Origin: Terriglobia bacterium
Lineage (GTDB): Bacteria > Acidobacteriota > Terriglobia > Bryobacterales > Bryobacteraceae
Assembly: GCA_025350105.1 (NCBI GenBank)
Contig: JANXYJ010000051.1
Location: forward strand, 1 to 47,331
Reading direction: 5' to 3'
Length of the DNA: 47,331 nucleotides
A model generated the notes under the pieces. It saw only the letters and a program-made list of their open reading frames with translations, had not been told where the DNA came from and did not search any database. The translations under genes were made by a program, and so were the position numbers. Positions 13,719 through 38,068 of the stretch are shown piece after piece (positions within the stretch are counted from its first letter, which is position 1; every line of letters starts with the position of its first letter).

Positions 13719-14498
13719 TTATGGAACAGGCGCAGGAATGATGTGCTGCGGATCCTGATTGTTTTCTGCACAATCGGTTTCCATAATGCGTTCGTCGCGC
13801 GGAGTGTGGCGCAGAATCAGGCGGTAACTCCAAGGTTTGGTGAGAACTTTGGGGTCTTCCATAATCGCTTCGTAGTAGATTGTGTTGTCGGGTTGCAGCG
13901 TATAACGCTCGGTCACATGCAAATCCTCGCTGTGAAAATGACCGGGGCCGGGCAGCCATGTAACATCATTGAACGAGGTCACGTCCACCACGAACGTGTC
14001 GCCCTCCCAGCGGCCAACCGAATCGCCCATGTATGCCGGATACATATCGGTGGGATGCGGCTTGTCGATAGGAATGATGCGAAAGGTGTGATTGGATTCG
14101 TACAGAATCGCGATTTTCTTCGGCGTTTGAATAATCTCAAACGGAACCACGCTGCCGGTGATGCGCGGCACTCCGGCCATCTTGCATTGCACCTGCGGAT
14201 TCAAGCGGTCGTCGGAGGCCAGCGCTTTTACCTTCGCCGCCAAGTCCGCGCGGTAAGGCGCTGGCCCAACCGGTGGACCCCACACGCTTTTCGTGCCTTC
14301 GCCCGGACGCAGTTCGCCGGTTTCGCCAAACAACGCCACCCCGAACGCTTGCCAGATGCCGGTAAGATCCGGCTTACCGTCGGCTGCGCGCGGAAGTTTC
14401 GCTGGAGCATTTTTCAACGGTGCGGCGGGAGCCGGCTGGCCCCAGGCCGTCAGCTTGAACAAATACGCGAATAGAAACACCGTAAGCAGTTTTTTCAT
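13719..14498 (-). CDS. Exported 'PDLTGIW' protein, paired with DUF6152
   Basis: A 259-residue secreted protein of unknown function, signal peptide LTVFLFAYLFKLTAWGQ. After a Pro/Ala linker it has the hallmark AADGKPDLTGIW, then QCKMAGVPRITG, IIQTPKKIAILYESNHTFRIIPID, YMGDSVGRWEGDTFVVDVTSFND, HVTERYTLQPDNTIYYEAIMEDPKVLTKPW, and a terminal MET-DCAENN segment. The same blocks recur in the protein at 35073-36032, so these are paralogues. They are abundant in Acidobacteriota and some Proteobacteria, usually beside DUF6152 genes. Here the DUF6152 gene lies 11 bp upstream on the same strand. An AAGGA element sits nine bases before ATG. No enzymatic motif is recognised. Confidence 0.8.
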   Translation of the reverse strand: MKKLLTVFLFAYLFKLTAWGQPAPAAPLKNAPAKLPRAADGKPDLTGIWQAFGVALFGETGELRPGEGTKSVWGPPVGPAPYRADLAAKVKALASDDRLNPQVQCKMAGVPRITGSVVPFEIIQTPKKIAILYESNHTFRIIPIDKPHPTDMYPAYMGDSVGRWEGDTFVVDVTSFNDVTWLPGPGHFHSEDLHVTERYTLQPDNTIYYEAIMEDPKVLTKPWSYRLILRHTPRDERIMETDCAENNQDPQHIIPAPVP

Positions 14499-14509
14499 GA
14501 GCAGTGTCC

Positions 14510-14890
14510 TTATTGCGACGGCGGGCCCCAGTACAATTTGTTCCCGCCGGGCAGCGTTACCTGCCGGCCCGCCATCCGGTTACTGCCGTCTTTTGACGCC
14601 CAGCCCTCTACGGTGATGGACTCCCCCACCTTGATGATGTCCTTCCCCCAACCGGTGCGCCGCAAAATATTGGGCGGATGGCCTTCGACGATCACGCTTT
14701 TCACCGCGCCAGATTCGTTTTTGACATCCAGGTAGATGTAGGCGTGCGGGTTGCGCCAATCAAGCTGCGCGACGGTGCCGGTTACGGTGACCGGTTTCAG
14801 TCCGTCGTACTCCGCAGCGAAAGAATGATGCGCCGAAAGCCGAAGGCCGGCGGAGGAAAGCAGCAAACTCAAAAGCAAAATGTGACGCAT
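14510..14890 (-). CDS. DUF6152 family exported protein (copy 1)
   Basis: A 126-residue protein. Signal peptide HILLLSLLLSSAGLRLSAHH, cleaved near the AHH motif that begins the mature domain (HHSFAAEYDGLKPVTVTG). The small beta-rich domain has WRNPHAYIYLDVKN and GKDIIKVGESITVEGWASKDGSN and ends LPGGNKLYWG. This is the DUF6152 pattern, with its conserved histidines (HH near the N-terminus, NPHA); metal binding is a plausible but untested inference. Start ATG 14890 has a strong AAGGAGG seven bases upstream. An upstream in-frame extension lacks a signal peptide and is rejected. It is first gene of a pair with the PDLTGIW protein. A second pair lies at 34617-36032 in reversed order. Confidence 0.85.
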   Translation of the reverse strand: MRHILLLSLLLSSAGLRLSAHHSFAAEYDGLKPVTVTGTVAQLDWRNPHAYIYLDVKNESGAVKSVIVEGHPPNILRRTGWGKDIIKVGESITVEGWASKDGSNRMAGRQVTLPGGNKLYWGPPSQ

Positions 14891-15014
14891 CGGCGGCCTC
14901 CTTAAGAAAGCGGTGGAAAAGCGGACTCTAGCCATTCCATCACAAAGCGCGGGCCCGATCAACAGAGGCCCAATGGGTAGTCTTATCGCCTGAGCATATA
15001 ACGAAGCTGTTTGC

Positions 15015-25472: not shown

Positions 25473-28400
25473 CTACTGCGCCGCCAGCGCCTGAATTTCG
25501 GTCGAGGTGAGGATCCGGTTGTAGATCCTCAAGTCGTCCAGCGCGCCGTTGAAGGCATCCCATCCGGAATCGGGAGTGCCGCCAAACGACAGGTTGACGT
25601 CGTTATCGATTTGGATGGTGCCCACCGCTGCCGTTTGGGTGTTGTAGGCCACTTCAACACCGTTCTTATAGATGTGGATCTTGCGATCCCCGGCGTCGTC
25701 ATAGGTCATGGTCCAGTGGGTCCAAACGTTCAGAGCGTAGGTGCCAGGCAGGGCTTCGGAGTAGGCTGCCACTGTGCCAGCCGCCACCATTCCAAACAGG
25801 TTGAACGCGGCGCTGGAGGTGGTGGGACCGAAAGTGAAGGTCTTACGGACATCGCTGCCGCTGCCCTTCTCCATCGCCGGTCCGCCATCGTGCAGCATGG
25901 TGCCCTTGGCGTTGGCCCAGAAAGCCCAGGTGAGCGTCTTCATGTCATTCAGGACGGCCGGCTTACCGACGTTGACGATGCTGGTGGCAGTGCCCGCCAT
26001 GGCCACGGCGGAACCCAGATGGCCAGTGGTCCAGGTGGCGTTCACCAACGCGGCGGGAACGTTGTTTCCCGAGGTGTCGTTTGCCACCGTGCCCGTGCCT
26101 TCATTCATGGTCCACAGTCCGGCGGGCGGCGTTCCGCCCGCACCGGTTGTGAAGGTCCAGGTGAAGTTCGCGCCCAGTGCCGATCCGGCAAAGTTGGTTA
26201 CCGTACCCGCCACCGTAGCCGTGTAGACCGTATTCGCCGTCAGCGGAGCCGATGGCGTCATCGTTGCCGTCGCACCCGACACCGCAATATTGCCAGTAAC
26301 ATTCGTGGCCGATCCAGCAGCCGTCAGCGTAAACGTGGTGCTATTGAAGGCCGCCGCCGTCATGTTGGAGCTAAACGTCACCGACACCGGCGTATTTACC
26401 GAGAGCCCGGTGGCCGCTGCGGCTGGTGTTGTCGACAGCACCAGCGGAGCGCCCGCTGTGGTGAAGCTCCACGTATAGTTTACTCCCAGGGCAATTGCCG
26501 CAGTGCTCGACACTGTGTTCAGCACCGTTGCGGTATAGGTAGTGCCAGGGGCCAGCAGCGCCGCCGGCGTCAACGTCGCCGTCGCGCCAGCAGCGCTCAC
26601 CGTTGCCGGCACAGCCGTCGCCGTGCCCTGCGCGGTCAGCGTAAAAGTTGCGGTGGTGAACGTAGCCACGTTCATCGTGGTGCTGAAGTTGGCCACCACA
26701 GTTGTGTTGGTTGCTACTCCAGTCGCATTCGCCAGCGGCGAAACGCTGGTTACCGCCGGTGCCGCGGCCGTGGTGAAGGTCCACGTGTAGGCCGTGCCCA
26801 GAGGCACCAACGCCGTGTTGGTTACTGTAGCCGCTATGGTCGCAGTGTAGGTCGTGTTGGCTGCCAAGACCGCGTTAGGCGTGAGCGTTGCCGTCGAGCC
26901 GGAAAGCGCAACCGTCGCCGCTACATTGCTGCCTGCTCCCGCCGCCTTCAATGTAAAAGTGGACGTGGTGAAACTCGACGCGGTCATCGCCGCGCTGAAG
27001 TTGGCCACCACCGCTGTGTTGATTGCCACTCCCGTCGCCGCGTTCAGCGGAGTAACGGTGGTCACCGTAGGCGCCGGCGCCGTAGTGAAGCTCCACGAGT
27101 ACGCCGTGCCTAAAGCAGCGCCCGCCGTACTGGTCACTGTTCCGGCGATGTTTGCCGTGTACACCGTGTTCGGCGCCAGGGTGGCCGTGGGCGAAAGCGT
27201 AGCCGTTGCGCCGGAGACAGCAACCGTTGCCGCCACAGGTGTGGCCGACCCCGCTGCCGTCAGCGTGAACGTGGCCGTGGTGAACGTCGCCGCCGTCATG
27301 TTTGTATTGAAAGTCGCCGAGGGCTTGATGTTAATCGCTACTCCGGTCGAGTTTGCCAAGGGGTTAGTCGAGCTAACCGTTGGCGGCACTGCTGCGGTAG
27401 TAAACGTCCAGGTGAAGTTCGCGGCCAATGCCACACCGGCCGTACTGTTTGCGCCGGTGGTGATCGTCGCCGTGTAAACCGTGCTGGCCGTCAAGGCGGC
27501 GCTGGGCGTCAGCGTCACTGTAGAACCGCTGGTGCTGACCGTGGCCGCCGTGTTAGACCCAGCTCCGGCAGCCTTCAGCGTGAAGGTGGTGGTCGTCAGC
27601 GTCGCTGGATCCATCGCCACGCTGAAGTTCGCCACTACCGCGGACGTCGGCGCTACCCCCGTAGCCGATGCCGCCGGCACTACCGATGTCACTGTGGGCG
27701 CGGGCGCCGTGGTGAACGTCCAGGTGTAGTTTGCTCCCAACGGTACTGCGGATGCGCTGGTTACCGTGCTCAGAATCGTCGCCGTGTAAACCGTATTGGC
27801 CGCCAGTTTGGCCGACGGCGTCAGCGTTGCGGTACTGCCCGCTGCGGTTACCGTCGCCGTAACGTTGCTGCCCGCACCCGCGGCTTTCAACGTGAAGGTG
27901 GAGGTGGTGAAGGATGCCGCGTTCATCGCCATGCTGAAGTTTGCCACCACCGCGCCGTTTACAGCAACGCCCGTCGCCGCGTTCAAGGGCGTAACGGAGG
28001 TCACCGTCGGCGGCGTCGCCGTCGTGAAACTCCAGCTATAAGCCGTGCCCAGCGGAACCCCGGTTGCACTGGTCACCGTTCCCGCGATGTTCGCGGTGTA
28101 AACCGTATTGCCCGCCAAAGCAGCCGCCGGTGTCAGCGTTGCGGTGGATCCGGAAACGCTTACCGTGGCCGTCACCGGAGTTGCCGAACCCGCGGCCGTC
28201 AGTGTGTAAGTCGCCGTGGTGAACGACGAAGCTGTTATCGCGGCGCTGAAGGTGGCCGTCACCGTTGTGTTTAACGCCACGCCCGTCGCTGCGGCCAAGG
28301 GAGTTACCGCCGTCACCGTTGGCGGCGGGGCCGTAGTGAAGCTGAAGGTATAGGCCGTGCCCAACGGAACCCCGGCTGTGCTGGTCACCGTGGAGGCAAT

Positions 28401-31400
28401 CGTCGCTGTATAAACCGTGCCCCCCGCCAGCGGTGCCGTCGGTGTCAAGGTCGCATTGGCGCCGGAGGCGGTTACTGTCGCCGGTACAATTGTTGCCGAT
28501 CCCGCCGCGGTCAAGGTGTAGGTCGCCGTCGTGAATGTCGCCGCCGTCATCGAAGTGCTGAACGTCGCCACCACCGATGTATTCAGTGCCACGCTGGTCG
28601 CGGCATTCGCGGGTGCGGTTAAGCTCACCACGGGCGCCGCCGCAGTGGTGAAGTTCCACGTATAGTTTGCGCCCAGCGCAACCCCGCCGCCGCTGGCAAC
28701 CGTGCTGGCAATCGTCGCTGTATAAACCGTGTTGGGTGTGAGGGCGGCCGCCGGTGTCAGCGTCGCCGTAGATCCCGCAACCCCAACCGTCGCGGTAACC
28801 GGAGTGGCTGCTCCCGCCGCCTGCAAGGTGAAGGTAGCCGTGGTAAACGTGGCCGCGTTCATCGGCGTATTGAAAGTCGCTGTCACGGCCGTCGCAAGCG
28901 CCACACCGGTTGCGTTCGCCAGCGGCGTCACTGCCGTTACCGTTGGCATTCCATTGGTCGTGAAACTCCAGGTGAAATTACTACCCAGCGGTACCGCCGC
29001 TGCACTGGTCACCGTGCCTGCAATCGTCGCGGTGTAAATCGTCGCCGCCGCCAGTTGACTGGTCGGCGTCAACGTTGCCGTCGATCCCGTGACGCTAACG
29101 GTCGCGGGAATGGCAGTGGCTGAGCCTTGCGCCAGCAACGTAAACGTCGCCGTGGTAAACGAAGCCGCGTTCATCGGTACGCTGAAATTCGCTACCACTG
29201 TGCTCGCCACCGCAACGTTGGTCGCCGCCGCTGCAGGGGCCGTCGTCGTTACCGTCGGTGCTGGAGCCGTGGTAAAAGTCCAACTATAGTTTGCCGCCAA
29301 CGGAACCGCCGACGCGCTGGTGGCCGCCGTCGTAACCGTCGCAGTGTAAACCGTGTTTGGCGTCAGCACAGCAGATGGCGTCAGCGTTGCCGAGGTGCTG
29401 GTCGCATTCACCACTGCCGCCACGTTCGTCGCCGAGCCCGCCGCCGTCAGCGTAAAGCTGGCCGTTGAAAGCGAAGCCGTATTCATCGCCGTGCTGAAAT
29501 TAGCCGTCACGGCGGAATTCACCGCCACGCCCGTGGCCGTGTTCGCCGGAGTCACCGTCGTCACCGTCGGCACCACACCCGTCGTGAAGCTCCAGCTATA
29601 ATTCGCTGCCATTGCAGCGCCGCTGGTGTTGGTCACCGTGTTCAGGATCGTGGCCGTATAGGTGGTCGACGGAGCCAGCGGTGCCTGTGGCGTGAGTGTC
29701 GCAATTGCGCCGGAAACCGAAATATTCGCCGCCACTGGCGTAGCTGCGCCGTTGGCCAACAAGCTGAAACTGGTGGCAGTAAACGTAGACGCCTTCATCG
29801 TCGTATTGAAAGTAGCAGTCACTCCCGCATTCACAGCCACGTTCGTCGCGCCCGACAAGGGTGAAACGGAACTCACCACCGGCACCGGTTGCGACGATCC
29901 GTAATTCGCCTGGTAATTTCCGGTGGTCACATTAAAGAAAGCGTAGTTGACGCCCTTGATTGTCTGCGTCGTGAAGGCCACCGACTGGCCGCCCCGCAGG
30001 ATGGTGGACAACCCACCGTTGCTTGAATTGATGGGCAGCATCGCCTGCATGCCATTCGATCCCGTCGCCGCCGTTACCCCAAACGTAAGTTGTGAGCCAC
30101 TCCACGCCAGATTATTGAACGACGAATTGTTTCTGCCATCGGTCCAGGTCAGCGCCTGCTTCGCCGAAATGGTGGGAATGCCCAGCGATTGCGCGTACTG
30201 CACTAAGGGCACCGCGTAGGAATCCTCCCATGTGCCATCGGTATGAATCAACGCCGTGGCGAACCCGTAGTAGCCCTGTGAACCAACCGCCGCATTCAAT
30301 ATTGGATAACCGTCGCTCGGTAGATTCTGGCCCACCATATCGTTGATGGGCGTGGCGGCCTGGTAGATGTCCGCCATGGTTCCGTCCACATTCGCGAACC
30401 GCATGTTCAGCAGCGAACCCGTCATGGGCCCGGGATTGCCATTGTAATAACCATACGGCCCATTGAAGTACGAGGTGTCCATGCGGATGCCATACTTCGG
30501 ATCTTCGCTCGGTTGGGTGAACCAGTCATACCAGGCGCCGCAATGAGTGCGCGTGGTGGTTGAGGGATTTAGACCCGGATATCTGCTGGTCTGCGCCGCC
30601 AACTGCGTGGAAATAAATGAGTCCACTTGCGCCAGGTTGTAGGGACTGCAATTCACCTGCAGGTGCAAACCGATCTCAAACCCCGAGGTTTGATAGGCAA
30701 CCAACTGCGCATTGGTATAAGATACCTGCGACCCCTGCAGGTCGCTGCTCGAGAAAATATACGAGGTTGCCCGCACACATTGCCAATTGGCTACCACGCA
30801 GCCCACTGGATCCAATGCCTTAAAGTTATCGAAGCGATCCGGCGTGGCGCCCGGCTGACCGTGATCGTCGCCCGTCATGATTAACGCCATATTCTTGCCG
30901 AACGGAAGGTACCAGAAACGCGGCAGCGGAGTCTTGTTCTGATTCATCATCAGAATCATGTTGGACAGCAGCCGCATTTGTTCGTCCGCCTGCGGAATAT
31001 TCGTCTTGGTCAAATCCACCCAGTTTTTCTGGTTATCAAAACTCGCCGGTCCGTAAAACAGCGAATACGTCACCACACCTGATGTATACAATGTCGCCCG
31101 CGCCTGTCCCGCCCACGCAGGATTGCCCTGCCGGGTTAGCACCACCGACTTGGCCAAATCATAGGTGAACGCTCCCACCATCCCCGCGCCCACTGGCATC
31201 ATCACCACAGCTGGATTCGATGTCGAACTGGTGGCCGTACTATACAGCGTGGCCACTTGCGTCGCACCCGAAAGGGTATACCGGTCGGCGATTCCATGGA
31301 ACTGCATGGTTGCGCTGGTAATTCCCGAACCGGGTGGCGCAATCGTGTTCACTAACATGTAGCCTTCGCTCAGCGTGGTCGCAGCGTCGGTGATGCCCAG

Positions 31401-31769
31401 TAGAGTCGCCAATTGTTTATCGGGGCGCATCGCGATCAAATTGCCGCCCGCATTGACGTACGTGGAAAACATCGACACCTGTGCCGCCGTCACCGGCATT
31501 TGGCCTAAAATCACCACATCGTAGGAGGACAATGTGGCCGCCGTCACCGTGGATAAGTCCGCCGTCGTGAATTCGTTGAATCCTTCCGCGCGTAAGATCT
31601 CCGCATAATATTGCGAAAAGGGATTGCTGGAGGTTGTCACCACCAACACCGGCCCACCTGGGCCCTGTGTCAGCAACGACAGATCGACAGTGGCATCCCC
31701 TTGCGCTTGAAGCGTAGACGCTGAAAGGCACGCCAGTGCCAAAGCACAAATTACACGTATAGATTTCAC
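25473..31769 (-). CDS. Giant exported protein: deacetylase-like N-terminus, 12 Ig-like repeats, LamG domain
   Basis: A 2098-residue secreted protein. Order: signal peptide (VICALALACLSASTLQAQ); a flavodoxin-like region (25-210; VLVVTTSSNPFSQYY, YDVVILGQMPV, GGNLIAMRP) like DUF4350/ThuA-type folds; a NodB-like polysaccharide-deacetylase-type region (about 275-600) with MALIMTGDDHGQPG, GFEIGLHLQVNC and RTHCGAWYDWF, whose DDH and HLQ residues could bind metal; 12 Big_5-type Ig-like repeats of about 103 residues (628-1873); and a LamG/concanavalin-like domain (about 1885-2098; LWTMNEGTGTVANDTSGN, DDLRIYNRILTSTEIQAL). It probably acts on, or binds, polysaccharide at the surface. Start GTG 31769 follows GGAGGA by nine bases. 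A hairpin lies just upstream of that site. Confidence 0.9.
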   Translation of the reverse strand: MKSIRVICALALACLSASTLQAQGDATVDLSLLTQGPGGPVLVVTTSSNPFSQYYAEILRAEGFNEFTTADLSTVTAATLSSYDVVILGQMPVTAAQVSMFSTYVNAGGNLIAMRPDKQLATLLGITDAATTLSEGYMLVNTIAPPGSGITSATMQFHGIADRYTLSGATQVATLYSTATSSTSNPAVVMMPVGAGMVGAFTYDLAKSVVLTRQGNPAWAGQARATLYTSGVVTYSLFYGPASFDNQKNWVDLTKTNIPQADEQMRLLSNMILMMNQNKTPLPRFWYLPFGKNMALIMTGDDHGQPGATPDRFDNFKALDPVGCVVANWQCVRATSYIFSSSDLQGSQVSYTNAQLVAYQTSGFEIGLHLQVNCSPYNLAQVDSFISTQLAAQTSRYPGLNPSTTTRTHCGAWYDWFTQPSEDPKYGIRMDTSYFNGPYGYYNGNPGPMTGSLLNMRFANVDGTMADIYQAATPINDMVGQNLPSDGYPILNAAVGSQGYYGFATALIHTDGTWEDSYAVPLVQYAQSLGIPTISAKQALTWTDGRNNSSFNNLAWSGSQLTFGVTAATGSNGMQAMLPINSSNGGLSTILRGGQSVAFTTQTIKGVNYAFFNVTTGNYQANYGSSQPVPVVSSVSPLSGATNVAVNAGVTATFNTTMKASTFTATSFSLLANGAATPVAANISVSGAIATLTPQAPLAPSTTYTATILNTVTNTSGAAMAANYSWSFTTGVVPTVTTVTPANTATGVAVNSAVTANFSTAMNTASLSTASFTLTAAGSATNVAAVVNATSTSATLTPSAVLTPNTVYTATVTTAATSASAVPLAANYSWTFTTAPAPTVTTTAPAAAATNVAVASTVVANFSVPMNAASFTTATFTLLAQGSATAIPATVSVTGSTATLTPTSQLAAATIYTATIAGTVTSAAAVPLGSNFTWSFTTNGMPTVTAVTPLANATGVALATAVTATFNTPMNAATFTTATFTLQAAGAATPVTATVGVAGSTATLTPAAALTPNTVYTATIASTVASGGGVALGANYTWNFTTAAAPVVSLTAPANAATSVALNTSVVATFSTSMTAATFTTATYTLTAAGSATIVPATVTASGANATLTPTAPLAGGTVYTATIASTVTSTAGVPLGTAYTFSFTTAPPPTVTAVTPLAAATGVALNTTVTATFSAAITASSFTTATYTLTAAGSATPVTATVSVSGSTATLTPAAALAGNTVYTANIAGTVTSATGVPLGTAYSWSFTTATPPTVTSVTPLNAATGVAVNGAVVANFSMAMNAASFTTSTFTLKAAGAGSNVTATVTAAGSTATLTPSAKLAANTVYTATILSTVTSASAVPLGANYTWTFTTAPAPTVTSVVPAASATGVAPTSAVVANFSVAMDPATLTTTTFTLKAAGAGSNTAATVSTSGSTVTLTPSAALTASTVYTATITTGANSTAGVALAANFTWTFTTAAVPPTVSSTNPLANSTGVAINIKPSATFNTNMTAATFTTATFTLTAAGSATPVAATVAVSGATATLSPTATLAPNTVYTANIAGTVTSTAGAALGTAYSWSFTTAPAPTVTTVTPLNAATGVAINTAVVANFSAAMTASSFTTSTFTLKAAGAGSNVAATVALSGSTATLTPNAVLAANTTYTATIAATVTNTALVPLGTAYTWTFTTAAAPAVTSVSPLANATGVATNTTVVANFSTTMNVATFTTATFTLTAQGTATAVPATVSAAGATATLTPAALLAPGTTYTATVLNTVSSTAAIALGVNYTWSFTTAGAPLVLSTTPAAAATGLSVNTPVSVTFSSNMTAAAFNSTTFTLTAAGSATNVTGNIAVSGATATMTPSAPLTANTVYTATVAGTVTNFAGSALGANFTWTFTTGAGGTPPAGLWTMNEGTGTVANDTSGNNVPAALVNATWTTGHLGSAVAMAGTATSIVNVGKPAVLNDMKTLTWAFWANAKGTMLHDGGPAMEKGSGSDVRKTFTFGPTTSSAAFNLFGMVAAGTVAAYSEALPGTYALNVWTHWTMTYDDAGDRKIHIYKNGVEVAYNTQTAAVGTIQIDNDVNLSFGGTPDSGWDAFNGALDDLRIYNRILTSTEIQALAAQ
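26147..29893 (-). repeat. Twelve tandem ~312-bp repeats encoding Ig-like domains
   Basis: Each unit encodes P.VTSV.P...ATGVAVN at its start and TYTATI..TVTS..GVPLG..YTWSFTT at its end, with TFTL.AAG..T and STATLTP between. The units differ at the nucleotide level, so the array is old, but shared blocks remain. The repeats keep several antisense frames open. Confidence 0.9.
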
Positions 31770-32168: not shown

Positions 32169-32885
32169 ATGCCTGCCGCACAATTAATTGCCGATATTGT
32201 GGTCGCCAATCACATCCTGTTTGACCAGGGTGTGGTGGATGCCTTCGGCCACGTCAGCGTCCGCAGCGATGAAAACAAGCAGCACTATTTCCTGGCCCGC
32301 AACATGGCCCCGTCGCTGGTAGAGGCAGGCGACGTTCTGGAATACGACTTTGACTCCAACGCCATCAACCCTGGCGATCGGCGCGGTTATCTGGAACGCT
32401 TCATACATAGCGAAATCTACCGGATGCGCCCCGACGTCATGTCGGTGGTGCACAGCCATTCTCCCGCGGTGATCCCCTTCAGTGTTTCGCGGACCACGCT
32501 GCAGCCGGTCTATCACATGGCTGGATTCCTGCGCGACGTCAAGAAATACGACATCCGCACCGCCAGCGGCCAAATGACCGACATGTTGATTCGCAATCAC
32601 GACCTGGGCGTATCGCTGGCAGCCGCACTGGGCTCGGCTCCCGTGGCGTTAATGCGCGGACACGGCATCACCATCGTCGGTACCAGTATCAAGGAAGCCG
32701 TCTGCCGTTCCGTGTACGCCGAGATGAACGCGCGCATCCAAATTCAGGCAATGGGGCTGGGCACTCCTGTGGAATATCTTTCGCGGGAAGAGGCTGAACT
32801 GGCCGAAAAAGCTAACGCCGGACAATTCGACCGCCCCTGGGAACTGTGGCAAAAGCACGCGGAAGAAATCCGCCGCGGAAAATAA
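32169..32885 (+). CDS. Class II aldolase/adducin family protein
   Basis: A 238-residue zinc aldolase-fold protein of the fuculose/ribulose-phosphate family (FucA/AraD type). Zinc ligands His95 and His97 in VVHSHSPAV and His165 in MRGHGITIVG are in place. Other marks: DAFGHVSVRSD near the N-terminus (the substrate-loop motif, usually GNxS) and ERFIHSEIYRMRPDV. In this branch GH-VS replaces GNxS, as in several putative decarboxylases and non-phosphate aldolases, so the reaction (retro-aldol, or decarboxylation) is uncertain. ATG 32169 has a GAGGTG element six bases upstream. It lies downstream of a 399-bp gap with a palindrome and phased repeats. Confidence 0.88.
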   Translation: MPAAQLIADIVVANHILFDQGVVDAFGHVSVRSDENKQHYFLARNMAPSLVEAGDVLEYDFDSNAINPGDRRGYLERFIHSEIYRMRPDVMSVVHSHSPAVIPFSVSRTTLQPVYHMAGFLRDVKKYDIRTASGQMTDMLIRNHDLGVSLAAALGSAPVALMRGHGITIVGTSIKEAVCRSVYAEMNARIQIQAMGLGTPVEYLSREEAELAEKANAGQFDRPWELWQKHAEEIRRGK

Positions 32886-32926: not shown

Positions 32927-34594
32927 TTAATTCAGCGTCTCCACCTTCACAATACTCGCCCCGTGATTATTGCCGATCCACAGCACCGGCCGCGCCCCAC
33001 GGTCGTCCACAAACACGCGGCGGATATTGGTGGAACGCGGCAGTAGATACTCGTCCATCTTGCCCGTTTTGGGATCCAGCCGTAGCACCCGGTCGGTGGT
33101 CATCGACCCGCTCCACACATGCCCGGTCTTGTCCATCGTGCCGTCGTAAGGCGCGCTCCACGGCGAAGGCGCTTCCCATTCCTTGAACTTTTCCGTCTTG
33201 GTATCGAACAACCCAATCCGATTGCCCTTGTACTCGCCAAACCAGATGCGCCCTTCCGCGTCCATCTGCCCGCGCCGCGGAGCCGAGCCCTTGGTCGGCG
33301 TCTCCCACAGCTTGATCGCGCCGGTCTTGGCGTCCACCCGCCCAATATGTTCGTTGGCGAAATCCGTGAAGTACGCATTGTTCTGGGCGTCGGGAATCAC
33401 ATCATAAATATTGTGATTCTCGCCCTCTTTCGCATCTTTGAAAGGAGCAAACGTCTCCGTCGCGCCCGTCGCCAGATCGTAGCGGTGCACCACCGCAAAT
33501 CCGTTATTCTGCGACCACACCTTACCGTCCACGTGAGCCGACTGCGGTGCCGCCATGTTGATCTGCGTCATGTCCTTGTTGTACTCAGCCGGTGGTTTCA
33601 TGATGGTGAACTCTTCGCTGTTGCGGTCAAACTTGGCTATCGCCGCTTGAAACGTCATGCCGAACCACAAGTTGCCGGCGCGATCCAGTTCCAACCCCAG
33701 CTCACCCGTCGGCCATCCCGGCTTCTGAATCGGAAGGTTGTACTCCGTCACCTTGCCGGTTTTGGGATCCATCTTGCCCATCGCCTGCTCGCCGAAGCTT
33801 GAATACCAAACCATGCCATCGGGGTCCAGCACCACGTCGTGCGGTTCAATCATCTTGCGCGGCAAATCATATTCGGTGATGATCACCTGCGTGTTGCTGC
33901 CCTTGGGCCGCGGCAGCGTTTTGAAATCGTAGGCCCAGGTGCCGCGCCCCGCGCTTAAGTTGTAAGCCGCCAAAAAATCCGCTTGCCGCAGACGCGTTTT
34001 GGCCAACTGGTCCCCGCGCTCTTCCAGCAACCGCGTCGCCATCCTCTTTTGAATATGCAGCGGGAAGGATTGGTTCGCATACGTCCCCATCCGCTCCATC
34101 ACCTTCATAAATTCTTCTGGCGTGTGCTTGGAGCGCAATATCCGCTCCACCGTATGACATTGCACGCAATTCAGCAAGAATGCTTTTTGCTTGTCGTCAG
34201 TGGGAATGCTGGACATCCATTCTGAGTTGGTGATCTGTCCCCCAAGATTCTGCGTCTTGTGGAGCTTGAGATCGGCCGTGGCCGATTTGCCCTCACCCAC
34301 GGACACCGCGCCCACATCATCCACCTCATAGCCCACGGCGCGAATCTTCAGCGCGTACTGCCCCGGCTCCAGCCGGTCCTGCGGAAAGCTGTAGCGGCCC
34401 TTGGCATCGCTCACCACCGTCACGCTGATGACGGAGCCCGCCTTCTTGGCGCTCACCAACACGCCTTCCATCGGACCCTCTTCCGCCGAGCTCACTTGCC
34501 CCGTCAGCGCCACCGCCGGTTCACTCCGCAAAATTGCGCTTCCGAAAAACCACACCACCGCCGCCACGCAAGCCGCTGCCCAAGCTTTCCGCAT
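32927..34594 (-). CDS. Secreted fusion: carboxypeptidase-regulatory domain, heme-c motif, Vgb-like propeller
   Basis: A 555-residue exported protein. N-terminal hydrophobic segment (WAAACVAAVVWFFGSAI); a CarboxypepD_reg-type beta domain (28-112; LTGQVSSAEEGPMEGVLVSA, GRYSFPQDRLEPGQYALKIRA); a c-type heme motif CVQCH (C143, C146, H147) in a short helical segment, with MERMG as possible distal ligand region; then a Vgb/streptogramin-lyase-like beta-propeller (about 215-550; repeated WYSSFGEQAMGKMDPKTGKVTE, GRIWFGEYKGNRIGLFDTKT and VWSGSMTTDRVLRLDPKTGK). It probably passes electrons in the periplasm, but the propeller substrate is unknown. ATG 34594, with AAGGCGG eight bases upstream, is preferred to TTG 34615. 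It is the third gene of an operon with DUF6152 and PDLQGVW genes. Confidence 0.85.
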   Translation of the reverse strand: MRKAWAAACVAAVVWFFGSAILRSEPAVALTGQVSSAEEGPMEGVLVSAKKAGSVISVTVVSDAKGRYSFPQDRLEPGQYALKIRAVGYEVDDVGAVSVGEGKSATADLKLHKTQNLGGQITNSEWMSSIPTDDKQKAFLLNCVQCHTVERILRSKHTPEEFMKVMERMGTYANQSFPLHIQKRMATRLLEERGDQLAKTRLRQADFLAAYNLSAGRGTWAYDFKTLPRPKGSNTQVIITEYDLPRKMIEPHDVVLDPDGMVWYSSFGEQAMGKMDPKTGKVTEYNLPIQKPGWPTGELGLELDRAGNLWFGMTFQAAIAKFDRNSEEFTIMKPPAEYNKDMTQINMAAPQSAHVDGKVWSQNNGFAVVHRYDLATGATETFAPFKDAKEGENHNIYDVIPDAQNNAYFTDFANEHIGRVDAKTGAIKLWETPTKGSAPRRGQMDAEGRIWFGEYKGNRIGLFDTKTEKFKEWEAPSPWSAPYDGTMDKTGHVWSGSMTTDRVLRLDPKTGKMDEYLLPRSTNIRRVFVDDRGARPVLWIGNNHGASIVKVETLN

Positions 34595-34616
34595 AGAGAA
34601 CCGCCTTAAATCCAAC

Positions 34617-35048
34617 TTACTTACTCTCTTTACTTTCTTCCGCCGCCGTATTCGACGTGCCCAGGAACAATTTCTTCCCGTCCAAAAACGTCACATCGCG
34701 CCCATTGGCCTTGTTCGATCCGTCCTTCGACTGATACCCGTCCACCATAATCTCCATCCCGGAAGTGACGGAGTTCTTGGTCACACCCCGGCGCAACAAC
34801 GTGTTCGGGCTGCCGCACTCCACCATCCAGTTGGTCATCGTGCCATCGGCGTTCTTTACGTCGATGTGAATCCAGGCATGCGGATTGATCCACTCCATCC
34901 GCGTCACGACGCCCTTCAGCTTCACCGGCTTGTTGCCGTCAAATTCCGCGGCAAAAGCATGGTGTGCAATCGCCGGCGCCGTCATGCTGATCAAACCAAT
35001 CAGCAAGCCTGTGGCTGCCAGCGCGGTCGCAAAAATGTTCCGTTTCAT
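34617..35048 (-). CDS. DUF6152 family exported protein (copy 2)
   Basis: A 143-residue paralogue of the protein at 14510-14890. Signal peptide (IFATALAATGLLIGLISMTAPAIA), then AHHAFAAEFDGNKPVKLKG, WINPHAWIHIDVKN, VECGSPNTLLRRGVTKNSV, VDGYQSKDGSNKANGRDVTF and KLFLGTSN. The blocks align almost one to one with copy 1, including HHxFAAE and NPHAxIxIDVKN. The tail is longer and rich in Glu, Ser and Lys. It sits between the PDLQGVW gene (24 bp upstream) and the heme-Vgb fusion (22 bp downstream), all on one strand. Start ATG 35048; GAGGAG is rather far upstream (about 14 bases). Role unknown. Confidence 0.85.
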   Translation of the reverse strand: MKRNIFATALAATGLLIGLISMTAPAIAHHAFAAEFDGNKPVKLKGVVTRMEWINPHAWIHIDVKNADGTMTNWMVECGSPNTLLRRGVTKNSVTSGMEIMVDGYQSKDGSNKANGRDVTFLDGKKLFLGTSNTAAEESKESK

Positions 35049-35072
35049 AATTAGGTTGGCTCCTCTCAAAAA

Positions 35073-36032
35073 CTATTTCGCATCCTTCTCAGCGGCCCTG
35101 GCCCCCGCCAGTATGCCTTCCATCCCGTAATTTCCCTCGTGACAAGCATACTCGTAAACCCTGGCGTTGGTCTTCCCCATCGTGAGTTGCGCCGTCCAAG
35201 ACTTCGTATAATTCTCCGGATCGTTCACCGTGAACTCATACAGGATAGTATCTGCATCGGTCCGTGTGAAGCGCTCGGTCAGATGCAGGTTCTCGCCCGT
35301 CCCCCGGAAGCGGCTCTTGCCGGTGAAATTGGTGGTATCGACCACCAGGGTCTCGCCCTCCCAATGCCCGCGCGAATCGCCCATCCATGATTTAACAGCG
35401 GAACTGAGATGCGGTGTTTTGGTGAGAGGGATGATCCGCACATCATGAATCATCTCGATAAGAATGATGAGGGAGTCTGCTGTTTGTAAAATTTGATAGT
35501 TGTTGTTATACGGACCCGGCACCATCGGCGGACCCGCCATCGGCCACAAAATACATCGTTCCGTCAGTGCCCTGCTCTCCGGACCGTCCGCCGGATGCAA
35601 TCGCCTCTGCTCGGCCAACTCCGCTACGCGCTTCTGCCCCAGCTCCGTCATCGCCGGCAACTTGCCATCGGCCGGATCCACAATCAGCGACGTGCGCAGC
35701 GTTTTGACGACGTGTGTTCCCCTGTCATACCAGCCATCGTTGTACGCCGCGGCCACATCCGCAGCCGCATCCTTCGGCCGCTTGTCCACGTTGTTCTTTT
35801 CGACGATGCTCCGCTCCCAGGCCACCGCCTCCGCCGGAGTGAAGAACGCTTTGCCCGCAAATTCCACCGGCCGCTCCATCGGGGTCACCGTCGCATTGGT
35901 CCAAACCCCCTGCAAATCCGGCTGGCCGTCAGCGGTGCGCGGAGCGCTGTATTTCTTGGTTGGCGTTTGCGCTTGACCCACCGCCGAAACCACCAACACC
36001 AAGCTAGAGAACACAAAAACTCGCACCATCAT
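35073..36032 (-). CDS. Exported 'PDLQGVW' protein, paired with DUF6152
   Basis: A 319-residue secreted paralogue of the 13719-14498 protein. Signal peptide (VRVFVFSSLVLVVSAVGQAQ), RTADGQPDLQGVW, then a region unique to this copy (about 40-170; FAGKAFFTPAEAVAWERSI), the shared CILWPMAGPPMVPGPYNNNY and LIILIEMIHDVRIIPL, SWMGDSRGHWEGETLVVDTTNF, HLTERFTRTDADTILYEFTVNDPENYTKSW, and the terminal YEYACHEGNYGMEGIL. WEGxTxVVD and LTER are common to both copies. Start ATG 36032 has AGGAG ten bases upstream and a TATAAT box near 36055-36060. It is first gene of the operon with DUF6152 and the heme-Vgb fusion, divergent from the PQQ-heme protein. Confidence 0.85.
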   Translation of the reverse strand: MMVRVFVFSSLVLVVSAVGQAQTPTKKYSAPRTADGQPDLQGVWTNATVTPMERPVEFAGKAFFTPAEAVAWERSIVEKNNVDKRPKDAAADVAAAYNDGWYDRGTHVVKTLRTSLIVDPADGKLPAMTELGQKRVAELAEQRRLHPADGPESRALTERCILWPMAGPPMVPGPYNNNYQILQTADSLIILIEMIHDVRIIPLTKTPHLSSAVKSWMGDSRGHWEGETLVVDTTNFTGKSRFRGTGENLHLTERFTRTDADTILYEFTVNDPENYTKSWTAQLTMGKTNARVYEYACHEGNYGMEGILAGARAAEKDAK

Positions 36033-36054
36033 GCGGCACACTCCTGCTGGGGTG

Positions 36055-36060
36055 ATTATA
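36055..36060 (-). promoter_or_regulatory. -10 box of the PDLQGVW-DUF6152-Vgb operon
   Basis: TATAAT on the reverse strand (36055-36060), 22 bp before ATG 36032. No good -35 sits at 17 bp. Confidence 0.4.
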
Positions 36061-36082
36061 TAACGTTCCCGTCCAAATTCCG

Positions 36083-36170
36083 GGGACAACCAGGACGTCC
36101 CTGTTTGTTCCCGTGTTACCAACATGTTGCCAGTTTGCCTTCCCGCCCCGACCGCCTTTCTGGTTGTCCC
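36083..36170. repeat. 11-bp inverted repeat in the divergent gap
   Basis: GGGACAACCAG (36083-36093) and CTGGTTGTCCC (36160-36170) are perfect inverted copies 66 bp apart. Between them lies the palindrome CAACATGTTG (36120-36129). They occupy the gap between divergent operons and could bind a looping regulator. Confidence 0.45.
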
Positions 36171-36235
36171 GCAGCAAATGCCAATTTTGGGAGTCGCGGA
36201 CTTCCTCTTTCCAATTCACTAAACTAGTACAGACC

Positions 36236-38068
36236 ATGAAATTTCTGCTGATCAGCCTAATCGCGCTCACCGCCTTCGCCGCCCCCTCCGGAGAAGACTT
36301 GTACAAAGCCCGCTGCGCCACGTGTCACGACCAGAACACACCGCGCATACCGCCGCGCGAGGCTTTGCAGAAACTGCCGGCTGCGCGCATTCTTCGGACG
36401 CTGGATTTCGGTTTGATGATGAACATCGCCTACACACTGAAGCGCGAAGACCGCGAAGCCATCGCCACTTTCCTGGGCACCAACGCGCCGGATGTTCCGT
36501 CGATCACCAATTCGTGCACATCTAGACCCATGGCCGGCTCCTCCACCGGCAACTGGAATGGCTGGAGCCCCAGCTTCGATAACGCCCGCTACCAAACCAC
36601 TGAAAAGGCCGGCATTACGCTGAATCAGGTGCGCGGGCTGAAGTTGAAATGGGCTTTCGGTTTCCCCGGCGACATCACTGCTTTCGGCGCGCCCACGGTG
36701 ATCAACGGCACCGTTTTCACGGGCAGCGCCAGCGGAGCCATCTACGCCCTGGACGCCAAAACCGGCTGCACGCATTGGGTTTTCCAAGCCAACGGCCCTG
36801 TGCGCATGGCACTGCTCGCTGCCGTCGTTAATCAAGAAAAGGTCGGAAAAGAAACCACGCTCATCTTCGGCGATCAAATCGGTTGGGTGTACTCGCTGGA
36901 CGCCGCTACCGGCAAACAGCTTTGGCGCAAAAGAATTGAAGATCACGAAGCCACCCGCCTTACCGGTTCGCCCGTTTCGCACAACGGAGTGGTGTACATC
37001 CCCGCCGCTTCGTGGGAGGAAACGCGTTCGCTCGATCCGCAATATCCATGTTGTACTTTCCGCGGCAGTTTGACGGCGCTGCGCATCAAAGACGGCACGC
37101 AAGTCTGGAAATCATTCATGATCGAGGTGCCCAAGAAAACCGGCGCCACCAAACTGGGCACCGCCACCTGGGGACCCTCGGGCGCCGGCATTTGGTCCGC
37201 GCCCACCATCGACGCCAAGCGCAACCTTATGTACGTCACCACCGGCGACAATTATTCGCATCCGTCATCGAAGACCAGCGACGCCATTGTGGCGTTGGAC
37301 ATCAAGTCCGGCAAAATTGTCTGGAGCCAACAGACCCTTCCTGAAGACGTTTACAACTCGGCGTGCGGAAACAAAGCGGCCCCCAACTGCCCGATCAACA
37401 GCGGCCCGGATTATGATTTCGGGTCCTCGGCGCTGTTAGTCAAAGCCGAAAACGGAAAAGAGATCGTGTTGGCTGGCCAAAAGTCCGGCGTGGTTTATGC
37501 GCTGGATCCAGAGCAAAAAGGCAAGGTGTTGTGGCAAACCCGCGTGGCCAAAGGCGGACTGAACGGCGGCGTGCAATGGGGCATGGCCAGCGATGGCCAG
37601 AAGGTTTACGCGGCTTCCGCCGATTCCGAAAAACTCACCGGCGGCGGTGACCGCGGGGCCGCGCTGGTGGGCAACGCCGCCTACAACCCCTCAGCCGGCG
37701 GAGGCCTCACAGCGCTGCGTTTGACCGACGGTTCCAAAGCCTGGTTCGCACCGCCGCAGGCATGCAATCCGCCGCGCCCCGGTTGCACTCCCGCGCAGGA
37801 AGCTGCGGTGACCATGATTCCCGGCGTGATTTTCTCCGGTGCGCTCGACGGCCACATGCGGGCTTATAACGCCGAAGACGGCAAAGTCATTTGGGACATG
37901 GACACCGTCCGCGATTTCACCACCGTGAATGGCGTCGCAGCGAAAGGCGGGTCACTAGATGGCGCCGGGCCGGTGGTGTCGGGCGGGATGATCTTCATCA
38001 ACTCCGGCTACCCGCGCAACGGAGGCATGGCGGGAAATGTGCTGCTGGCGTTTGAGCCGGAGGAATAG
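36236..38068 (+). CDS. Secreted PQQ-propeller quinoprotein with N-terminal cytochrome c motif
   Basis: A 610-residue exported protein. Signal peptide (FLLISLIALTAFAA), a c-type heme motif CATCH (C27, C30, H31), a small cytochrome domain to about 85, then a PQQ beta-propeller of the BamB/quinoprotein type with repeated W-motif blades: YALDAKTGCTHWVF, YSLDAATGKQLWR, IVALDIKSGKIVW and VYALDPEQKGKVLWQ, and a closing GGMAGNVLLAFEPEE. The order heme then propeller matches polyvinyl-alcohol dehydrogenase-like proteins. PQQ ligands cannot be fixed by eye. It probably oxidises an alcohol and hands electrons to the heme. ATG 36236 precedes the signal peptide; upstream codons do not resemble one. It is divergent from the PDLQGVW operon. 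Confidence 0.85.
   Translation: MKFLLISLIALTAFAAPSGEDLYKARCATCHDQNTPRIPPREALQKLPAARILRTLDFGLMMNIAYTLKREDREAIATFLGTNAPDVPSITNSCTSRPMAGSSTGNWNGWSPSFDNARYQTTEKAGITLNQVRGLKLKWAFGFPGDITAFGAPTVINGTVFTGSASGAIYALDAKTGCTHWVFQANGPVRMALLAAVVNQEKVGKETTLIFGDQIGWVYSLDAATGKQLWRKRIEDHEATRLTGSPVSHNGVVYIPAASWEETRSLDPQYPCCTFRGSLTALRIKDGTQVWKSFMIEVPKKTGATKLGTATWGPSGAGIWSAPTIDAKRNLMYVTTGDNYSHPSSKTSDAIVALDIKSGKIVWSQQTLPEDVYNSACGNKAAPNCPINSGPDYDFGSSALLVKAENGKEIVLAGQKSGVVYALDPEQKGKVLWQTRVAKGGLNGGVQWGMASDGQKVYAASADSEKLTGGGDRGAALVGNAAYNPSAGGGLTALRLTDGSKAWFAPPQACNPPRPGCTPAQEAAVTMIPGVIFSGALDGHMRAYNAEDGKVIWDMDTVRDFTTVNGVAAKGGSLDGAGPVVSGGMIFINSGYPRNGGMAGNVLLAFEPEE

Follow-up and report, generated by a model that had tools for sequence, protein, structure and literature searches.

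In dehydrogenases that depend on pyrroloquinoline quinone (PQQ), an Asp, a Lys and a Ca-ligand Glu have defined roles at the cofactor site, and in protein P0001 of Sphingopyxis sp. 113P3 a cytochrome c domain precedes such a PQQ propeller. Its gene (LH20_RS22175), which is annotated as 'PQQ-binding-like beta-propeller repeat protein' only, is taken here to be the polyvinyl-alcohol (PVA) dehydrogenase (cytochrome) gene of a PVA operon and to encode a PQQ-dependent enzyme; the adjacent hydrolase-like gene presumably encodes the oxidised-PVA hydrolase. Among secreted proteins, four metalloprotein families with an N-terminal His have been described, and in the accessible part of that source DUF4198, DUF6702 and the anglerases have a His that is exposed by signal-peptide cleavage together with further conserved His (PMC12537917). 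As far as the accessible text of a further study goes, PqqU in Acidobacteria was found only in Vicinamibacteria, and own synthesis or diffusion was suggested for the rest (PMC12124388). Here we analysed a 47,331-nucleotide contig of a Terriglobia bacterium (the window; contig C2 of a genome of 4.74 Mb in 206 contigs, 96.5% complete), in which the genes for a PDLQGVW-family protein, a DUF6152 protein and a heme-carrying Vgb-like protein (heme-Vgb) stand opposite a quinohemoprotein gene. Numbers with G, C and L are our handles for genomes, contigs and loci.

The PDLQGVW and DUF6152 genes were shown by distribution and linkage to form a conserved, heavily amplified secreted module. The interpretation of the locus is to be re-centred on this two-gene module with changing partners and on a quinohemoprotein without evident cofactor source. 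As a whole, the locus would best be explained as a place where three separable modules, all exported, come together rather than as one conserved machine, an explanation in which we place about even confidence. The features concerned are as follows.

32927-34594, minus strand: heme-Vgb gene (555 aa); signal peptide, CarboxypepD_reg, CVQCH mono-heme domain, Vgb-like propeller
34617-35048, minus strand: DUF6152 gene; predicted signal peptide ending in AIA before HHAF, OB-fold, NPH motif
34956-34964, minus strand: His-His-Ala, the predicted mature N-terminus of DUF6152
35073-36032, minus strand: PDLQGVW gene; secreted; low-confidence prediction of an FABP-like calycin barrel
36033-36235: divergent intergenic gap of 203 bp, common to the PDLQGVW and quinohemoprotein genes
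36236-38068, plus strand: quinohemoprotein gene; N-terminal cytochrome c (CATCH), PQQ propeller, relative of protein P0001 of Sphingopyxis sp. 113P3
13722-14498, minus strand: second PDLQGVW-family gene in the window
14513-14962, minus strand: second DUF6152 gene in the window; predicted cut between RLSA and HHSF, NPH motif
32169-32885, plus strand: class II aldolase-like neighbour gene; its best NCBIfam model, 3,4-dihydroxyphthalate decarboxylase (88 bits vs cut-off 200), gives a hint of aromatic catabolism at a score below the cut-off

Distribution and linkage of the PDLQGVW-DUF6152 pair

The genome that contains the window yielded 33 DUF6152 matches and 72 PDLQGVW-family matches, a few of the latter being two pieces of one gene. 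A PDLQGVW match was located within 1.5 kb of 24 of the 33 DUF6152 matches, on the same strand in 23, compared to a mean of 1.9 and a maximum of 9 under random placement (2000 draws). The window itself harbours a second pair at 13722-14962 (minus strand). When the search was extended to the phylum, DUF6152 was found in 22 of 199 genomes, and 29 of 30 DUF6152 loci had a PDLQGVW match in their 1.5-kb flanks, a count that takes both strands (the match at L189 is on the opposite strand) and includes two loci from the window's own genome. Furthermore, both families were present in 48 of 120 genomes of the order, DUF6152 alone in 4 and PDLQGVW alone in none (thresholds E<=1e-8 and 1e-20); the corresponding numbers outside the window's genus were 35, 4 and 0.

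The pair was also found on sphingomonad plasmids, with overlapping open reading frames (ORFs) in Novosphingobium humi. The plasmid pair of Croceibacterium atlanticum adjoins a TonB-dependent receptor, and on the plasmid of Sphingobium sp. TomTYG65 two pairs stand in tandem, with two genes for DUF6644 membrane proteins and one for a TonB-dependent receptor nearby. Sphingomonad plasmid PDLQGVW and DUF6152 genes near two DUF6644 membrane proteins were observed at L232 (4793-10748) and L206 (4888-8863), and in relatives, L214 (7058-11521) and L216 (1419-5992) have arrays in which one DUF6152 gene is accompanied by four PDLQGVW genes in tandem. Two pattern scans detected no viral relatives of PDLQGVW and DUF6152.

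Predicted properties and neighbours of the pair

The DUF6152 protein belongs to PF19649 with a Pfam score of 122.8 bits (gathering cut-off 27). Two DUF6152 sequence sets were drawn, both from the collected loci only, and they comprised 62 or 61 sequences owing to different de-duplication. His-His directly follows the predicted signal peptide in all 62 distinct sequences, 60 of which have Ala just before it; all 62 also contain an (N/S)PH motif. When offsets from -9 to +8 were tested, the AxA-type signal-peptidase rule fitted exactly before His-His in 60 of 61 sequences and in 35 of 36 representatives; at offset -5 it fitted in 31 of 61. The nine sphingomonad DUF6152 sequences all showed the same His-His cut and Pro-His, the Asn before Pro-His being not always kept. 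DUF6152 is thus predicted to have a His at its mature N-terminus, as in a histidine-brace-type site. Since His-His stands at the cut and Pro-His is present in 62 of 62, DUF6152 is best read as a putative metal binder, secreted, with an OB fold and with a His at its N-terminus; its mature chain would begin with His-His and, together with the conserved Pro-His, may bind a transition metal. For comparison, 2.6% of the mature N-termini are His among the sequences used to train SignalP, and the accessible part of the same source describes a beta-sandwich for the secreted N-terminal-His metalloproteins, which differs from the OB fold predicted in DUF6152 (PMC12537917). No paper found in the PMC literature named DUF6152 or PF19649, the accessible part of PMC12537917 included.

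The AlphaFold2 model of DUF6152, made from six sequences, had a predicted local distance difference test (pLDDT) score of 81 and an OB fold, with a Z score of 9.9 to PriB over 81 residues at 2.4 Å. The Foldseek list, in which all entries were weaker than E 0.001, comprised SSB, PriB and tRNA-synthetase OB folds, and the search for sequence relatives in the PDB returned weak, unconvincing ones only. Fold likeness of this kind shows no function, and families missing from the Foldseek lists are not thereby excluded.

Neither Pfam nor NCBIfam had a model that matched PDLQGVW at E<=0.01, and no paper found in the PMC literature named it. The residues common to a 13-sequence alignment include W44, C160, R199, G218, S220, G222, E253, R254, D271, E294 and C297. 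In a second-look structural alignment of the PDLQGVW model (pLDDT 62), 50 rows consisted of FABP-type proteins and NanoLuc, which we take to be an FABP-like structure, with a Z score of 9.3 to FABP5 over 120 residues; the Foldseek list (weaker than E 0.001) contained FABPs and also LolA, factor-H-binding protein and others. PDLQGVW resembles the FABPs and calycins in its predicted barrel and differs from them in being secreted, in its length of about 319 aa with insertions, and in having no sequence match in the PDB at E<=1. Our working reading is that PDLQGVW is a secreted ligand-binding barrel, and a calycin-like barrel as in the low-confidence model may hold a small ligand.

The amplified pair is set beside differing receptors and catabolic genes. 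Copies were found beside a homogentisate dioxygenase gene (HgmA, at L151), beside genes for a LigB-type dioxygenase and an RraA-like aldolase (L153), and beside a CarboxypepD_reg outer-membrane barrel (L156, L159 and L164). The preliminary description had suggested looking for outer-membrane transporters near these genes in other genomes, and such transporters do stand beside several pairs, though not among the four genes of the window and their direct neighbours. A fourth long ORF beside a pair (L229) was ruled out as a receptor, being a histidine kinase; the other three of the four tested are outer-membrane barrels. Quinohemoprotein genes were also linked to the pair. Of 15 genomes that belong to the window's family but not to its genus, 5 (G045, G053, G085, G098 and G101) had one no more than 2 kb from DUF6152; the null draws averaged 0.05 and did not exceed 3. 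Among 9 genomes of a sister family, none had one at that distance. This test used gene places among the matches listed; it did not include the window's genus, the four genomes with heavy expansion (G048, G086, G090 and G110) or G100, which had no DUF6152 place among the matches listed, and it kept G047 with 2 of its 22 DUF6152 matches. Since the receptor and catabolic neighbours differ, each pair copy probably serves the substrate or cofactor of its neighbour and not one fixed four-protein chain.

These neighbours also bear on the possibility that the pair forms a module for acquiring or handling metal, with CopC-CopD-like logic and no direct role in oxidation. The N-terminal His-His and conserved Pro-His of DUF6152 would suit such a module, and so would the receptor-type barrels adjoining the pair at L156, L159 and L164, the TonB-dependent receptors near it on two sphingomonad plasmids, and the two DUF6644 membrane proteins close to it in two sphingomonad species. 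However, DUF6644, which was named in no paper found in the PMC literature, has no CopD match in Pfam, the HgmA, LigB-type and quinohemoprotein neighbours suggest catabolism, and dozens of copies seem too many for one metal. We consider a module of metal handling alone unlikely.

The quinohemoprotein and a possible PQQ source

The quinohemoprotein contains the Pfam domains PQQ/PQQ_2 and Cytochrome_CBB3 and shares 37.5% identity with the 113P3 plasmid protein over 96% of the query. C27, C30, H31 and M61 of its cytochrome domain are invariant in eight quinohemoprotein relatives. In a profile alignment with two annotated PQQ dehydrogenases, D392 pairs with the WD-motif Asp and K416 with the Lys, and both are invariant in 8 of 8; the Ca-ligand Glu aligns with position 261 (E in five, D in two and N in one) beside an insertion, and position 262 is Glu in 7 of 8. 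Since D392 and K416 are invariant and a Glu is present at 261 or 262 in most relatives, the alignment points to no wholesale loss of PQQ ligands. Loss of the heme or PQQ ligands had been named beforehand as evidence that would overturn the original oxidation model; CxxCH and the catalytic Asp and Lys are kept. The vicinal Cys-Cys of classical PQQ dehydrogenases is absent. An invariant C272-C273 was observed in a CC(T/K)FRG motif, at a site that differs from that of the classical pair.

The 113P3 protein is alike in its N-terminal cytochrome c and PQQ propeller, its CC(T/K)FRG motif and its equivalents of Lys416 and Asp392. The two loci differ in that the hydrolase-like gene P0002 precedes the protein in 113P3, whereas no P0002-like hydrolase gene matched in the window better than E 0.58. 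The model for PQQ-dependent methanol/ethanol dehydrogenase (TIGR03075) gave 116.5 bits, below its cut-off of 480. The window protein appears PVA-dehydrogenase-like in its full-length domain build and is not filed as a PVA dehydrogenase. As judged from homology and the kept catalytic residues, it would oxidise an alcohol-type substrate in the periplasm and pass the electrons to its own N-terminal heme.

The source of PQQ was then considered at the level of genomes. PqqC and PqqE over cut-off were found in none of the 13 genomes of the genus (the window's included), though all 13 carry quinohemoprotein genes, and both were found in the same 7 of 120 order genomes. Quinohemoprotein genes and PQQ synthesis were unassociated (4 of 59 genomes with the gene and 3 of 61 without it), which leaves the PQQ-dependent oxidation proposed in the preliminary description unsecured. 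The Escherichia coli PqqU query at E<=1e-15 matched in 0 of 13 genus genomes and 3 of 120 order genomes, among the best 9 of at least 14 candidates per genome, so that a divergent PqqU could be missed. Because PqqC and PqqE were not over cut-off, own PQQ synthesis is unlikely in 113 of the 120 order genomes; since the synthesis genes were not found, the cell would have to obtain the PQQ of its quinohemoprotein from its surroundings.

The same counts fit an 'empty' quinoprotein, one that contains no PQQ and works by its heme alone or with another cofactor. All 13 genus genomes carry the gene without PqqC/PqqE over cut-off and were unmatched by PqqU at E<=1e-15 among the best 9 of at least 14 candidates per genome; moreover, the classical vicinal Cys pair is missing, and NCBIfam holds a related quinoprotein model, acido-empty-quinoprotein group A (TIGR04528). 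The window protein reached 77.4 bits on that model, against a cut-off of 650. In addition, the invariance of D392 and K416 in 8 of 8 and the Glu262 kept in 7 of 8 argue against an empty site, and the 113P3 relative, which we take to be PQQ-dependent, has the same residue changes. No paper found in the PMC literature contained the term 'empty-quinoprotein'. A quinohemoprotein without PQQ is doubtful on this evidence.

Heme-Vgb and the four-gene arrangement

Heme-Vgb matched Vgb_lyase with 101.5 bits and CarboxypepD_reg with 49.6 bits in Pfam, and its PDB matches were to Vgb. It was detected in 10 of the 120 order genomes (E<=1e-20); of these ten matches, that in G117 is a heme-less propeller protein and that in G032 a fragment. 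The alignment comprised 73 sequences, i.e., the window protein and 72 full-length homologs with >40% identity from 69 of 80 loci, cut or divergent copies having dropped out. C143, C146, H147, M169, H252, D253, Y397, R440, R441, Y483, R525 and R526 are invariant in 73 of 73. The CxxCH motif in each of the two propeller proteins, as first described, was confirmed, with CVQCH at 143-147 in 73 of 73 heme-Vgb sequences and CATCH at 27-31 in 8 of 8 quinohemoproteins. With its CxxCH and conserved Met169, a possible axial ligand, heme-Vgb has the predicted features of a c-type cytochrome.

Although the propeller is of the same sequence family as virginiamycin B lyase (Vgb), heme-Vgb differs from that enzyme by its additional CarboxypepD_reg and mono-heme domains and by the loss of the catalytic His and mostly of the Glu. 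The position of the catalytic His, which we take to be H228 of Vgb, is Tyr in 73 of 73 sequences, and the Glu position, assigned from the presumed roles of the Vgb residues, is Q in 38, E in 22, S in 11 and M in 1 (one not printed). The Pfam score and the PDB matches to Vgb would speak for a streptogramin-B-lyase-type antibiotic resistance enzyme; the NCBIfam Vgb(A) model was, however, reached with 79.6 bits only (cut-off 600), and together with the Tyr at the His position and the mostly Gln at the Glu position this ruled out heme-Vgb as a Vgb lyase, so that the resistance role is extremely improbable. Heme-Vgb would instead be a separate, widely spread mono-heme propeller family without the lyase residues. 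Because Arg pairs, His and Tyr recur as invariant residues on the blades, a periplasmic redox enzyme or a binder of an anionic compound may be suggested. At 16 of the 80 loci L065-L144, a gene for a solute-binding receptor that presumably resembles TctC stood at most 5 kb from heme-Vgb. No paper found in the PMC literature joined Vgb, PQQ and Acidobacteria.

The gene calls and Pfam domains agree with the arrangement originally reported, in which the minus-strand PDLQGVW, DUF6152 and CarboxypepD-heme-Vgb genes face the PQQ-heme quinoprotein across 203 bp. All four calls start at ATG, with spacings of 22 bp (heme-Vgb/DUF6152), 24 bp (DUF6152/PDLQGVW) and 203 bp between the divergent ATGs. A longer quinohemoprotein ORF from GTG 36113 overlaps the region upstream of PDLQGVW; ATG 36236 is taken as the start because a signal-peptide-like N-terminus begins there. 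No sigma-70-like promoter was found in the 203-bp gap and no structured RNA at gathering score within the window. A defence role for the locus was dropped, as PADLOC gave no match for PDLQGVW, DUF6152 or heme-Vgb. Elsewhere in the window, 25476-31769 (minus strand) encodes a protein of 2098 aa that has a LamG-type domain at its C-terminus and contains 12 Ig-like repeats of the Big_5 type.

If the four genes were one conserved periplasmic electron-transfer system, the quinohemoprotein would oxidise, heme-Vgb would relay electrons and the small proteins would be fixed partners. The four are indeed adjacent and all have predicted export, and among the 10 heme-Vgb-matched genomes the quinohemoprotein is present in all 10 (59 of 120 overall) and DUF6152 in 9. 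The flanks of heme-Vgb were surveyed at 80 loci, 32 of them from Acidobacteriota and the rest mostly from Alpha- and Betaproteobacteria, many flanks being ended by contig ends. The three minus-strand families occur together in 3 of 80 loci (L065, L119 and L135), with the gene order and strand of the window in L065 alone; G075 probably has the same trio split by a contig break. At L119 (257-4190), DUF6152, two PDLQGVW genes and heme-Vgb were seen on one strand in an order that differs from the window. A quinohemoprotein of the window's type (>40% identity) was found near heme-Vgb in 5 of 80 loci (L068, L069, L109, L113 and L128). With looser protein clustering, a PQQ-type gene lay within 5 kb of heme-Vgb in 8 of 80, PDLQGVW in 6 and DUF6152 in 3. 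In the 48 loci outside Acidobacteriota, the flanks contained PDLQGVW once (L125) and a distant PQQ-type gene once (L085), and G006 and G106 have a DUF6152-PDLQGVW array without heme-Vgb. In G028:C8 and G072:C77, heme-Vgb and the quinohemoprotein are convergent neighbours with NHL-type and glyoxalase-fold genes, an arrangement different from the window. A recurring unit is that of L219 (4968-10019) and L220 (903-5957), where a glyoxalase-fold gene and a quinohemoprotein gene are convergent with an NHL-type gene and heme-Vgb.

The flank survey and the arrays of G006 and G106 ruled out the four-gene set as a conserved unit, and a single four-protein system is quite improbable. The linkage above chance is that of PDLQGVW with DUF6152, not of the set of four whose co-occurrence had been proposed as a check. 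What stands of the oxidation-cluster model is the presence of exported redox proteins and the finding that several other loci likewise have the small proteins next to a quinohemoprotein; one conserved four-gene system does not.

With three separable modules as the preferred reading, we speculated that the pair of calycin-like PDLQGVW and N-terminal-His OB-fold DUF6152, previously undescribed and lineage-amplified, might capture a redox cofactor, or a complex of metal and cofactor, extracellularly and load periplasmic quinohemoproteins in Acidobacteriota without PQQ synthesis or PqqU. We assign this function a low probability. Several results weigh against the explanation as a whole. The co-occurrence tests ignore shared ancestry, and of the 7 quinohemoprotein places in the window's genome, only 2 (C2 and C187) have the pair nearby; the PDLQGVW genes at C130 adjoin a more distant PQQ-type gene, which is not among the seven. 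Weak PqqC-like matches of 41-52 bits (cut-off 240) exist in four genomes of the genus. The signal-peptidase rule also fits at offset +5 in 53 of 61 DUF6152 sequences, and cleavage there would delete the invariant His-His. Residues 1-3 of the DUF6152 model are below pLDDT 50, leaving the geometry of the His site unsupported by the model, including that of the second conserved His candidate in Pro-His (62 of 62 and 9 of 9 sphingomonad sequences). The structure model for PDLQGVW is of low confidence (pLDDT 62, predicted template modelling score 0.64), and with Foldseek neither model had a match at E<=0.001.

For the Acidobacteria without PqqU, the remark in the accessible part of PMC12124388 becomes a concrete test, namely the 113 of 120 order genomes without PqqC and PqqE over cut-off. 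If DUF6152 is indeed a metal binder, the secreted metalloproteins with an N-terminal His would gain a new fold, one carried dozens of times per genome by a genus of soil acidobacteria.

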